Shown here: in pieces, positions 18,714 through 24,208 of the stretch
Layout of the letters: each line of letters begins with the position of its first letter
Numbering within the stretch: the stretch's first letter is position 1
Source: an uncultured Clostridia bacterium
GTDB lineage: Bacteria; Bacillota; Clostridia; TANB77; UBA1234
Assembly (NCBI GenBank): GCA_947164995.1
Contig: CAMUYU010000010.1
Coordinates: forward strand, 1-40,739
Direction of reading: 5' to 3'
Length of the DNA: 40,739 bases
Translations under genes and position numbers: made by a program
Notes under the pieces: generated by a model
Seen by the model: only the letters and a program-made list of their open reading frames with translations
Told to the model about the DNA's origin: nothing
Database searches by the model: none

Positions 18714-19346
18714 TTATTTATGCGAACTAATAATAATATCAATTAGGTTCTTTAATGGTCCACTTTCATTATATATTTCTATTATTTTATTATGTGTATA
18801 TGGTACATTCCATAGAACTATACACGTGATAATAAACAATATGAATGTCATTATTAACGTTCTTAAAATATCTAGTTGTTCTCTCCATGATTTTTTATAT
18901 ACTACTTTCACACCCATTTTTTCAAGTGCAGCTATATATGCATCATTATATGCTTTTTTTATTTTATACTCTTCTTCTAATTTTTGTCTTTTTATATCTT
19001 CTTCTTGCTTTCTTTTATATTCCTCTTGAATCTTAGCAATTTCTTCTTCATTCAAACGTGAATAATCTATTTGAGGTTGTTGAACATTAATAGTTTGATT
19101 TTGTGTATTTTGAGTATTTTCAATCATTCTTTGCGTTTTTAGTTTTTCATCATAGCTTTTTCTTTTTGACTCATCAGACAACACTTCATAAGCCTCTGTA
19201 ATTCTTTTGAATTTTTCTTCGGCCTCTTTAGGATTATCTGGATTAAGATCTGGATGATACTTTTTCGCAAATAATTTATACACTTTATCAATTACTTCTT
19301 GAGAGGCATTTTCACTTATCTCAAGCACCTCATAATAGTTTATCAT
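18714..19346 (-). CDS. Membrane-bound J-domain (DnaJ-like) protein
   Basis: Class III J-protein of 210 residues. The N-terminal J domain (1-65) has the HPD tripeptide at 31-33 ('KKYHPDLNP') and '[14 protein letters not shown]', enough to stimulate an Hsp70 ATPase. A charged helical coiled-coil stretch (about 90-140) leads to one membrane helix near residues 165-185 ('[18 protein letters not shown]'). It lacks the Gly/Phe and zinc-finger regions of DnaJ. The ATG at 19346 is preferred to the GTG at 19358, which overlaps the upstream stop (GTGA). It is a candidate substrate-delivery partner for the AAA/M41 protease first in this operon. Confidence 0.88.
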
Positions 19347-19351
19347 TCGTC

Positions 19352-20083
19352 TCACCACTTAGTTCCAAAAAATAGTCGTTTCATAACGTCTAATTGTGGA
19401 TAATCTAGTTCATTCATTTGTTCCAATACTTTGTCATAATCAAACTTAAAATCATATTCATTATAATTAGTATTGTCATCACTTACTTCTAAAATTCCAT
19501 ATGTTCCATAAGTTCTATAATCAGGTAGTCCTAAACTTCCTGGATTAAAAAGCCATTTATCTTCATAATGCTTTGCAAAAGCAACATGTGTATGTCCAAA
19601 AAGAAAAATATCTGCATCATATTTCTTAAATAAATAATTTGCTTCATCCTTTGTAGGATAAAAAATAAAATTATAATATTCTTTCTTCTCATTTGAAGGA
19701 TAATGCATAATAGCTATTTTTCTATTTCCATCTTCTATTATTATTTCCTCTGGCAAATTATTAATAAATTCTCTTGATTCTTCAGAAAGCATTGAATAAA
19801 CCCATTTAGCATGTGCTCTTTCTTTTTCTGTAACCTTTAGTTTGTTATCATGTAAGTATTCTGGCAACCCTTTTATTACTCTATCTTCATGATTACCTTT
19901 TACAATTATTAATCTATCACCCAAGCTTCTTAATTTATTAACGCATTCTTCTGGATATGGTCCAATTCCTACAAAATCACCTAAACAAATTATTTTATCT
20001 ACATTTTTTTCTTCTATTTCTTTTAAAGCATTTTCTAGAGCTATTATATCTCCATGAATATCTGATATTATTGCGTATTTCAT
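19352..20083 (-). CDS. YfcE/MJ0936-type metallophosphoesterase
   Basis: Small calcineurin-like phosphodiesterase, 243 residues. Metal motifs run 'SDIHGD' near the N terminus, '[12 protein letters not shown]', 'VKGNHED', 'IMHYP', 'LFGHTHVAF' and 'NPGSLGLP'. This is the complete set for the YfcE group, in contrast to the D-x-Q enzyme at 1027-2289. Cytosolic. ATG with AGAGGT. It lies between the EamA transporter (25 nt) and the J-protein (overlapping GTGA). The substrate is unknown; cyclic nucleotides and phosphodiesters are usual. Confidence 0.9.
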
Positions 20084-20108: not shown

Positions 20109-21002
20109 TTATACATCTAATACACATAGTATTATTAATCCAACAATTGCAAATCCTAAAGCAATATATTTTTTTAAGCTCAATTTTTCTTTTAAGAATA
20201 TACTTGAAAGAATCATTGATAAAATACAATATGAGCCAACAATCGAAGCACTTATTGTAGAATTTCCAGCCATTGCAAATACATAGAAAAATTGACCTGC
20301 TGTTTCAAATATTGCTGCTAAAAACTTTTCTTTTTCCTCAGGAATTATAATCGTTTCGTTCTTTTTCTTCAAGAAAATAGTAGCAAATAAAGCAAATAAT
20401 AAGAATGTGAATTCATAACAAATTAACGCACTATCTTCACTAATAATTTCTAATTTATCTAAATATATTCCATCTAAAAATGTTCCCAATCCATCAATAA
20501 AGCAATATAGAATTGGAAATGCAATTGCTAGCATTTTAAACTTCTTATTTTTTAGTAATTGTACTTTTCTTTCTTCTTTGTCTTCTTTTTTCTCAAGCAT
20601 ACATATATAAAATATTGAGAAAAATATAAATACAAAAGCTATATATGCTGGCACTGGCAAGGTCTCTTTAAAAAATATTAGAAGCAGTATTGAAGTAATA
20701 ACACCACTAGTATTTTGAACAGGACTTGCAAGTGAAAGTTCTATATATTTTAAACCTTTATATCCTATTACCATTGACAAAATGTAACAAAGTGAAACTG
20801 GAAGATATTTAATTATCTCTATAAAATCAATGTTAATGTTATTAAAAATCATGTAACCAAGTGCATGTATTCCCATAACAATTCCAACTATAATTCCAGT
20901 TTTAATATCATTATATTTTTCTTCTTTAATATTACCTTTTTTATAGAATAAATCTGCTATTCCCCACATTGCAAAGGTAATAATACTAAATAGCATTGTC
21001 AT
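20109..21002 (-). CDS. EamA/DMT-family transporter
   Basis: About ten membrane helices in two homologous halves; the second half has 'IVGSYCILSMILSSIFLKEKLS', the conserved EamA element. Drug/metabolite transporters export or import small metabolites; the substrate cannot be told from sequence. 298 residues from the ATG at 21002, which has AGGTG six bases upstream; the GTG at 21011 lies over that RBS. It starts within a few bases of the AAA/M41 stop, so translation is probably coupled. Confidence 0.88.
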   Translation of the reverse strand: MTMLFSIITFAMWGIADLFYKKGNIKEEKYNDIKTGIIVGIVMGIHALGYMIFNNINIDFIEIIKYLPVSLCYILSMVIGYKGLKYIELSLASPVQNTSGVITSILLLIFFKETLPVPAYIAFVFIFFSIFYICMLEKKEDKEERKVQLLKNKKFKMLAIAFPILYCFIDGLGTFLDGIYLDKLEIISEDSALICYEFTFLLFALFATIFLKKKNETIIIPEEKEKFLAAIFETAGQFFYVFAMAGNSTISASIVGSYCILSMILSSIFLKEKLSLKKYIALGFAIVGLIILCVLDV

Positions 21003-21007
21003 TTCTT

Positions 21008-24000
21008 TCACCTATTAAATTCTTTTATGAACTCCTCTTCATTTATTTCTTTTTTATCCACTAAATAATCTATAACATTTTGCATCTTAGCTTTGTTATC
21101 TGAAATTATTTTTATCGTTTGTTCATAACACTCATTTATGATGTTATTTGTTTCTTCAAGTACCATTTTTTCAACTTCTGCACCCGGATTTGTTATTTTA
21201 GCAAGTCCTAATGAAGACATACCATAATCAGTAACCATTGATTTAGCAATAGAAGTAGCCTTTTCTAAATCACTACTACAACCATTTTCATTAAATCCGA
21301 TAAATACTTGTTCTGAGCACATTCCAGCTAAGCATACTTTTATTTCATTACCTAAATACTCTTTTGATTGTGTATAAGGCCTAGAAGTATTTTTATTCAT
21401 AACATATCCTAAAGTGCCTGCGCCTTCTGCATTTATTGTAATTTTTACTATATTTGGGTCTTCAAATAGTACATACCTTACTGTAGCATGTCCTACTTCA
21501 TGAATAGCAGTTTTCTTAATACTAGATTCCGTAATTCTATCAACATCTATCATGTTATTTCCATTTAAAATAGTATTTGCAATATCTTTAATTTCTGGAA
21601 TATCTTCTACAGAAATTAAATCAATAGCGTCATCTTTTAAATTCATAGCATGTTTTAATAGCGTTTCGGCAAACACTTTATCTACAAATCTTCCATTACC
21701 AAAATTTTCAACACTATGGAAGTAATTCATAATAGAATGTATTTTATCCATAGCGCCATCAGATAATCTTAGATTTGAAGCATTAACTTTCAATTCAAAT
21801 ATTTTATCTAATTCATCTGGTTCATAATCTTCAAAATCAAATGTATAACCTACTCTAGATGAAATACCAGGATTTGAGTTAATAAATTCTTGCATTTCAT
21901 TTTTGTATCCTGCAAAGATAACAACAAGTCTATCTTTATTATCTTCCATTGCTTTAATCAAAGTTGCAACTGCTTCATGTCCAAAATCACCAGTAGCACC
22001 TTTATTACTCGCTAATGCGTATGCTTCATCTATAAATAGTACACCACCCATAGCTTTATCGATTACTTCTTGTGTCTTTGGTGCTGTCTGGCCAATATAC
22101 ATACCTACTAAATCTTTTCTAGAAACTTCGGTTAATTTATTTTCCTTTATAATACCCAAGTTATAAAGCATCTTAGCCATTATTCTAGCAATAGTAGTCT
22201 TTCCTGTTCCTGGATTTCCAGTAAATACCATATGCATATTAAATGCTGAAAGCTTAATGTTGTTGGCTTTAGCTTTAATCTGGAACATCATGAACTTTTC
22301 AAACTCTTTAACTTTTTCCTTAACTTTGTTTAATCCAATAATATTTTTTAAGCTTTCATCAAGTGATTCTTTTTTATAAATATTTTGAGGAAATTCAAAT
22401 CTTCCTTTGGAATTAACATATAAAGAAATATAGTTTGCAAGTCCTCTATCATCAAAAGGCATAAACTTTTTAGCGAATGATACATATTCATTAAAATCAT
22501 TTCTAACTTTTTCTTCATTTTTTCTAAACTCTTCAATAAGTTCTGGCTCAATGCCTTGTAAGAATAAGTCAAAAATTTGATTTAGAGTTAATTCTGGAAG
22601 TTTATACACACTATCTTGATATACGAAGTTAAATCTTGGATCAATGTCTAAAAGTTTTTCAACCTCTTCTTCATTTCCAGAAATGATTACATATTCATTT
22701 TTATTCATAGATGTAAGCAAATCTATAGTATGTCTAATTTGTTTTCTATTAATTGAAATGCCTGTGATATCTTTTGTATCTCTATAGTCATTTATAAATT
22801 CAGAAATATTATCTAATACATATAACGTATTTGGTTCAAATTGAGCATAGTAAAACAAGTCATTTCCCTTATACCTTACACCATTAATGTCTCTTTTTGC
22901 ATATGGCTCAGGCATTGGTCTTTGACTCTCTTTTGCCTTTTTTCTTGCCTCTATGCTCTTTTCATCTTCAATATATTCATTTTCCATATGTGAATATATT
23001 TTTGAAAATTGTTGCATAGAATAATATCTTGCATTTTTTACTTTTTCAACATTTTTTAAAGCTCCAACAATTTTTAAAACAAAGTCTTCACGCTCTTTAA
23101 TATTATTTCCAGAAACAATAATATGAAGGCTTCTTTGCTTTTCACTACCTAGGATTACACGTAGACTATCTAAATTTTCAATTGCATCTTTATAGTCATC
23201 TAATCCTTCTAGCTTGTCTCTCTTTTTATCCTCTATTGATTTTATTCTTTGTTCAAATTTTTCTTTAATTTTTTTATCTTGTTCTTCTTGGTGTTCATGA
23301 TAGTACTTTCTTTGTTCATCTAGTTCTGCTTGTCTTCCAGATTTTTTCATGTAATATATATAACCTGCAACTTCATAAGGGCAACAACTCAATTTGCAAA
23401 AATAATCTGAACAGATGAAAGGATCTCTAGAAAAATGTCTTTGAATATTTCCATATTTTCTTCCTGTAGTATCTGGAATTTGAGATATTTGATTGTTAAT
23501 AATTGCATATTCATCACAAGATATTTGCGAATAAATAAACATTAATCCTTCTTTATCTGTAACATTTGCCATATCAACGATGTTCCTATTTACAAGTTCT
23601 TCACAGAAAGCATAATCTTCATCCTTTATTTCTGTAACACCAACTTTTGTATTCCACTCAAAATCAAAATAAGGAGAAAGCTTTGTATGATTACTTCTAA
23701 ATTCTTCTCTTTCTATTAAAGCATCTATAAGTTCGTTTTTGTTATAAAGATAAAGAATATAGGCAGCGATTGCTTTAGGGCATTTTTCAAATTTACAATT
23801 TCTACAAACATCCCCATAAAAATAATTATATAAAGCTTCTGCATCTTCTACTAAAAATCTATTGCCTTCTCTTTTTTCTTTTCTTACTAAAACTTTATCT
23901 GGTTCAGTTTGAATTCTTTTTAATAATTCATCTTCATCTAATTTATTATCACATAAAGAGAATAATGAATTCTTTATAATAATTTGTTGCCTTTTATTGC

Positions 24001-24208
24001 TTGTAGATTGAATAGAAAATTCACCAATAGATAGCATTTCAATAGCTAATTCTAAAGCTTTATCCGAGACATAATTTAGCTTGTTAATCGTATTAGGAAT
24101 TTCAAAGTCGTACTCTTTCTTCTCGCTATTTCCCTCTTCTATTCTTTTAAGTATTTGTTCAATTTTAGCTTTCAATTCATCACTTATCTCATAATTTTTT
24201 TCTTCCAT
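21008..24208 (-). CDS. AAA+ (SpoVK/CbbX-type) and FtsH-type M41 metalloprotease fusion
   Basis: 1066 residues. (1) N-terminal part with two copies of a Cys motif: C135-x2-C138-x4-C143-P and C266-x4-C271-x4-C276-P, each followed by AxxY. (2) A charged coiled-coil-like stretch (about 295-345). (3) Residues about 355-545 look like an AAA domain without Walker A. (4) SpoVK/CbbX-type AAA+ motor: Walker A GNPGTGKT 664-671, pore loop 'MYIGQTAPKT' 703-712, Walker B LFIDEA 724-729, Arg finger near R785. (5) M41 protease: HEVGH 903-907, 'GTLGYVM' and third zinc ligand D980 in 'CSSDLEKAT'. No membrane segment. FtsH normally joins M41 to its own AAA type behind two membrane helices; here the motor is swapped and the protein looks soluble. 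First gene of a six-gene operon. AGGAGG lies 24 nt upstream of the ATG with a small hairpin between; TAG is in frame just upstream, so no longer start exists. Confidence 0.9.
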   Translation of the reverse strand: MEEKNYEISDELKAKIEQILKRIEEGNSEKKEYDFEIPNTINKLNYVSDKALELAIEMLSIGEFSIQSTSNKRQQIIIKNSLFSLCDNKLDEDELLKRIQTEPDKVLVRKEKREGNRFLVEDAEALYNYFYGDVCRNCKFEKCPKAIAAYILYLYNKNELIDALIEREEFRSNHTKLSPYFDFEWNTKVGVTEIKDEDYAFCEELVNRNIVDMANVTDKEGLMFIYSQISCDEYAIINNQISQIPDTTGRKYGNIQRHFSRDPFICSDYFCKLSCCPYEVAGYIYYMKKSGRQAELDEQRKYYHEHQEEQDKKIKEKFEQRIKSIEDKKRDKLEGLDDYKDAIENLDSLRVILGSEKQRSLHIIVSGNNIKEREDFVLKIVGALKNVEKVKNARYYSMQQFSKIYSHMENEYIEDEKSIEARKKAKESQRPMPEPYAKRDINGVRYKGNDLFYYAQFEPNTLYVLDNISEFINDYRDTKDITGISINRKQIRHTIDLLTSMNKNEYVIISGNEEEVEKLLDIDPRFNFVYQDSVYKLPELTLNQIFDLFLQGIEPELIEEFRKNEEKVRNDFNEYVSFAKKFMPFDDRGLANYISLYVNSKGRFEFPQNIYKKESLDESLKNIIGLNKVKEKVKEFEKFMMFQIKAKANNIKLSAFNMHMVFTGNPGTGKTTIARIMAKMLYNLGIIKENKLTEVSRKDLVGMYIGQTAPKTQEVIDKAMGGVLFIDEAYALASNKGATGDFGHEAVATLIKAMEDNKDRLVVIFAGYKNEMQEFINSNPGISSRVGYTFDFEDYEPDELDKIFELKVNASNLRLSDGAMDKIHSIMNYFHSVENFGNGRFVDKVFAETLLKHAMNLKDDAIDLISVEDIPEIKDIANTILNGNNMIDVDRITESSIKKTAIHEVGHATVRYVLFEDPNIVKITINAEGAGTLGYVMNKNTSRPYTQSKEYLGNEIKVCLAGMCSEQVFIGFNENGCSSDLEKATSIAKSMVTDYGMSSLGLAKITNPGAEVEKMVLEETNNIINECYEQTIKIISDNKAKMQNVIDYLVDKKEINEEEFIKEFNR

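Follow-up and report, generated by a model that had tools for sequence, protein, structure and literature searches.

A SpoVK/CbbX-type AAA+ motor fused to an M41 peptidase suggests a soluble energy-driven protease in gut Clostridia

In the window (the whole 40,739-nucleotide stretch analysed, contig CAMUYU010000010.1 of an uncultured Clostridia bacterium), we identified a complete open reading frame on the reverse strand, whose 1066-residue product consists, from the N terminus, of two Cys4 units, a degenerate AAA domain, an active AAA+ domain of the SpoVK/CbbX type and a Peptidase M41 domain (table below). The initial annotation had proposed that such a motor and an M41 peptidase are joined in this one protein, and profile searches bear this out: Pfam AAA matches residues 660-775 (1.9e-19), AAA_lid_6 residues 817-871 (26.4 bits against a cut-off of 24.3) and Peptidase_M41 residues 892-1060 (5e-29). 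Among the NCBIfam profiles, spore_V_K (4.3e-73) and CbbX (5.5e-68) match residues 613-873, whereas FtsH_fam has its best stretch at residues 879-1059 only, i.e., in the M41 half. The Walker A motif, the pore loop, the HEVGH motif and D980 are each intact at the position that had been claimed for them. No membrane helix was found in the window protein, as had also been annotated: the highest 19-residue Kyte-Doolittle mean is 1.07, compared to 2.2-3.6 in seven FtsH proteins.

Features of the fused gene and its product in the window
Feature	Residues	Position	Strand	Basis or remark
Putative protease gene, complete ORF, ATG to stop	1066 aa	21008..24208	(-)	
Cys4 unit 1 (C86, C135, C138, C143)	43-171	23696..24082	(-)	tandem unit kept in aligned relatives
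Cys4 unit 2 (C231, C266, C271, C276)	193-303	23300..23632	(-)	same HMM matches both units; unit alignment
Degenerate AAA domain	340-606	22391..23191	(-)	hhalign, Foldseek, alignment
Active AAA+ domain and lid, SpoVK/CbbX/EccA clade	612-875	21584..22375	(-)	profiles, trees, structure
Walker A, GNPGTGKT	664-671	22196..22219	(-)	
Pore loop, MYIGQTAPKT (Y704-I-G corresponds to the CbbX YIG loop)	703-712	22073..22102	(-)	
Walker B, LFIDEA	724-729	22022..22039	(-)	
Peptidase M41 domain	892-1060	21029..21535	(-)	profiles, predicted structure
HEVGH, zinc and catalytic motif	903-907	21488..21502	(-)	motif conservation
D980, third zinc ligand, within SSDLEKA	980	21269..21271	(-)	motif conservation

The N-terminal half, which the earlier reading had left aside, holds the two Cys4 repeat units and the degenerate AAA domain. 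The Cys4 units form a tandem repeat and are mutually homologous, and because each contains four conserved cysteines, a metal site in each unit is probable. For the degenerate AAA domain, iterative profile searches converge on AAA, and hhalign matches it to the CbbX/SpoVK AAA (E 3e-5; the probability, 73, is modest). In a Foldseek search of its predicted model, the top three matches are CbbX (E 5e-4 to 8e-4); the N-terminal model is weak overall (pLDDT 58), with blocks of mostly 75-90 across residues ~350-600 except in the 400-460 loop. Walker A and Walker B are eroded in this domain of the window protein, and one relative (L266) keeps GDRGVGKT at the corresponding position.

The window neighbours of the fused gene are housekeeping genes. 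At its stop codon, the gene shares four bases (21008-21011) with the start (GTG) of a membrane-transporter-like ORF of 300 aa (20109-21011), beyond which lie a phosphoesterase-like ORF and then a DnaJ-like ORF (18714-19358), an order that is not kept in relatives. Across 28 neighbourhoods of fused genes, no family recurs as a neighbour or operon partner in more than 3, so that a single gene seems to encode the whole machine.

Comparison with solved structures places the motor closest to CbbX (1.8e-52). In the careful AAA tree, the AAA domains of FtsH form a 100/100 clade from which the window AAA is excluded, and the fused AAA domains, the window included, form one 99/97 clade whose sister is a set of M41-less SpoVK-like proteins (support for the joint grouping, 100/99). 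A phylogeny of residues 620-860 had been put forward in the initial annotation as the refuting test; it leaves the AAA domain outside the FtsH clade, and the proposal that the motor comes from another AAA clade stands. The clade markers agree with this placement: the window protein carries GY at sensor 1 (G767-Y768), the conserved asparagine ahead of the arginine finger (N779), GNGR at sensor 2 (R840) and, in the second region of homology, NPGISSR (NPG..SR) as opposed to RPGRFDR in FtsH. In the NPG-R-S-R finger, the first arginine is replaced by S783 and R785 is kept; most fused members have A, S or T at the former position, a replacement that need not abolish ATPase activity because the M41-less SpoVK-like proteins show it as well. 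The window protein scores below the NCBIfam equivalog cut-offs for SpoVK (245.6 vs. 422.95), CbbX (229.3 vs. 459.25), FtsH (TIGR01241; 106.5 vs. 600) and EccA. Judged by sequence, it is a member of the SpoVK/CbbX/EccA clade and neither an FtsH nor a SpoVK/CbbX equivalog. Members of this motor family are known only as chaperones that remodel proteins. Delerue et al. 2023 (PMC10659427) defined the clade and its markers and placed it as sister to FtsH; they found no peptidase fusions or interactions within it. A quick tree of wider scope gathers the fused AAA domains and most of their upstream copies in one clade of 38 rows (96), by which the upstream copies look like internal duplications. The same genome also encodes a SpoVK-like paralogue without M41 (604 aa; L041:8422-10236, G000 contig C7), which has a degenerate AAA domain of its own and belongs to the M41-less group closest to the fused clade.

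We modelled residues 601-1066 as a monomer with AlphaFold (45 sequences; pLDDT 91.1, pTM 0.79). By Foldseek, the AAA-M41 model matches FtsH cytosolic structures over its whole length (3kds, E 2.7e-23; 2ce7_B, TM 0.60/0.67), and its AAA part matches CbbX at 38% identity (TM 0.73). This whole-length match, the identical order of AAA, lid and M41, and the existence of FtsH-type proteins that lack transmembrane helices could be taken to indicate an FtsH that has diverged, its membrane anchor lost and its AAA domain drifted. However, the window AAA lies outside the FtsH clade on a branch of ~3.5 changes per site, the SpoVK profile scores 245.6 bits whereas FtsH_fam matches best in the M41 half, and the genome has an FtsH of its own (L001). 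In AU tests, holding the window AAA with FtsH was rejected (p = 0.023), whereas holding all fused rows with FtsH gave a marginal result (p = 0.057). We reject drift from FtsH on the AAA phylogeny, although the latter test was marginal, and regard such an origin as highly improbable.

In the M41 domain, H903, E904, H907 and D980 show no variation among the fused members (26/26) or the FtsH proteins compared (41/41). Ka/Ks ratios in four comparisons range from 0.03 to 0.19 across each computable domain, and from 0.09 to 0.19 for M41 alone, which indicates purifying selection and hence that the fused gene is maintained. M41 domains can lose activity, as the FtsHi pseudo-proteases show, and by this precedent the domain might serve here as a dead structural ring; with the catalytic residues kept throughout and M41 itself under purifying selection, we consider this extremely improbable, and reject a dead protease on the motifs. 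The fused M41 domains are separate from those of FtsH in the tree, where 23 of the 26 form one supported clade and the other three (L056, L272 and L278) are long branches of uncertain placement; the family probably goes back to one main fusion event.

The 26 distinct fused sequences, the window included, come from separate genomes, mostly of Clostridia and one a Coriobacteriales MAG, in collections that may overlap in species. An assembly chimera is ruled out by this number of distinct sequences in separate genomes with the catalytic residues kept. The fusion is patchy, being present in 15/385 genomes of the window's order, in six further genomes of the class Clostridia and in five genome_contigs records (Clostridia, Lachnospiraceae, the Coriobacteriales MAG and an unclassified bacterium); the carriers besides the window organism are about two dozen other gut bacteria. 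At a threshold of 1e-85, no fusion was found outside the class Clostridia in a 299-genome sample of the phylum. The number of active AAA domains that precede M41 varies: one in the window protein, L033 (1027 aa), L271 and L274-277; two in L036, L039 (whose N-terminal part is a separate gene), L265-269, L272, L273, L053 and L054; and three in L034 and L035. Two homologues lack M41 (L040:204-3134 and L055), which shows that the ATPase can exist without proteolysis. One fused gene lies in two frames (L270:8055-9788 and an overlapping ORF from 9775), by frameshift or sequencing error, and a broken copy with in-frame stops upstream (L279:8961-10025, G325) is probably a pseudogene.

Patchiness, together with weak IetA matches to the AAA domain, might point to an anti-phage or conflict effector protease. 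The IetA matches are, however, confined to the generic AAA core; the 28 neighbourhoods contain neither conserved partners nor defence genes, and the window's neighbours are of the housekeeping kind. No fused copy was found among the best 10 matches listed from annotated phages or from plasmids, all of which are AAA-only or FtsH-like proteins at ~25% identity. We therefore regard a role in conflict as very unlikely.

We consider it probable, from the sequence and the predicted structure, that the window protein is an AAA+ zinc protease of the cytosol, complete in itself, that would act as a hexamer, thread its substrates at the expense of ATP and choose them through its N-terminal units. Under this proposal, the SpoVK/CbbX-type AAA module would form a hexameric ring whose YIG pore loop grips the substrate; ATP would drive threading into a second ring, made of M41 domains and stacked on the first, where the HExxH...D zinc sites would cut the substrate. 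The degenerate AAA domain, along with the extra active AAA copies in relatives, would form an upstream ring that serves as an oligomerisation platform replacing the membrane anchor of FtsH, and the two Cys4 units would select substrates or adaptors. Hexamerisation of FtsH-family enzymes relies on the membrane anchor, as stated for YME1L (PMC5095350), for which the degenerate AAA layer may be a natural substitute. The hexamer, the threading, the proteolysis and the N-terminal roles, among them the likely function of the Cys4 units as readers of substrates or adaptors, are what we infer; energy-driven proteolysis is suggested by the intact motifs, their conservation and the predicted structure.

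The same architecture might instead belong to a dedicated chaperone or remodeller of the CbbX or SpoVK kind, whose M41 domain would make limited cuts in a single client to regulate it and would not degrade it processively. Characterised members of the clade each act on one dedicated target (PMC10659427), the N-terminal regions of the fused proteins are variable, and the distribution within the order is patchy, all of which would fit a dedicated role. So would the presence of ClpP in 20/21 genomes with the fusion, by which general proteolysis is already covered. On the other hand, the YIG pore loop suits threading, as does a stacking of AAA on M41 like that of FtsH, and no conserved neighbour gene offers itself as the client; we consider dedicated remodelling unlikely, and favour a processive protease. 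ClpP is missing only from the window's own genome, which is 85% complete, and the idea that the fused protein stands in for a missing ClpP is unsupported given the other genomes. By gene content, the fused protein would appear to add to ClpP and FtsH and not to replace them.

The initial annotation stated that in FtsH the M41 domain always comes with the classical FtsH AAA module behind two membrane helices. As a general rule for M41 this is wrong: we identified FtsH-type AAA-M41 proteins of ~480 aa without transmembrane helices (L047:5987-7411 and L048:6054-7517), as well as fusions of M41 to a ClpA/B-type AAA in 26/238 genomes of the window's order. The Clp-type fusions (L040:3391-5391 (+) and L317-L325) are ~640-700 aa long, their motor matches the N-terminal half and D1 of ClpA/ClpB, and Walker A, HExGH and the Asp are intact in the ten that were examined. 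In genome G045, a homologue of the window gene without M41 is followed directly, on its downstream side, by the Clp-type gene. Most Bacillota sampled have open frames of ~500 aa that encode a second M41, which is more divergent. On IMG/VR contigs of 116-367 kb (L131, L133:4297-6465 and L315), a 722-aa protein combines an N-terminal P-loop with a C-terminal M41, and in L131 a SpoVK-like AAA gene lies ~1.3 kb from it. Given the pairings without transmembrane helices, with Clp-type motors and with viral P-loops, M41 appears to be more mobile between motors than has been assumed. On balance, we favour the view that the M41 peptidase is portable and has become attached more than once to AAA+ motors outside the FtsH clade, of SpoVK/CbbX type and, in the same order, of ClpA/B type. 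Gut Clostridia would thereby have gained new classes of AAA+ metalloprotease that work in the cytosol, and in the SpoVK/CbbX class an AAA ring without catalytic activity would, together with the Cys4 units, replace the membrane anchor.

The textbook classes of AAA+ protease are Lon, ClpXP/ClpAP/ClpCP, HslUV, FtsH and the proteasome. Like these, the window protein brings motor and peptidase together, in one chain and with the motifs of both intact, and its presence in the other gut bacteria suggests an energy-driven cytosolic protease class absent from the literature searched. In that literature, of which subscription journals formed little part, we found no described fusion of M41 with a CbbX/SpoVK or a Clp motor. 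If a soluble protease with M41 and a CbbX/SpoVK motor is confirmed, it would add a class to the AAA+ proteases, and the Clp-type and viral pairings widen the finding beyond the window fusion. The motor-peptidase pairing is new in that the 2023 survey of the clade reported no peptidase associations, a published absence that the fusion contradicts (PMC10659427), and it suggests that members of the SpoVK/CbbX/EccA clade are true threading unfoldases. Dependence on the membrane anchor has hampered the study of FtsH-family enzymes, as has been said for YME1L (PMC5095350); the window protein would be a natural soluble M41 protease.

Compared to FtsH and the m-AAA and i-AAA proteases (MEROPS M41), the window protein shares a C-terminal M41 with HExxH...D, the order of AAA, lid and M41, and the cytosolic fold, but differs in its motor from another clade, its lack of membrane helices, its additional degenerate AAA domain and Cys4 units, and its own M41 lineage. 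With the SpoVK, CbbX and EccA chaperones it shares the AAA core, lid_6, the YIG pore loop, the GY of sensor 1 and the sensor-2 arginine, and it differs from them in carrying a peptidase. The FtsH-type AAA-M41 proteins without transmembrane helices likewise appear to be soluble and combine AAA with M41, but their AAA is of the FtsH type with lid_3, and they are shorter and devoid of the N-terminal units. The Clp-type AAA-M41 proteins resemble the window protein in being soluble, in carrying M41 on a non-FtsH motor and in occurring in the same bacterial order, and differ from it in that this motor is of the ClpA/ClpB type and not of the CbbX type.
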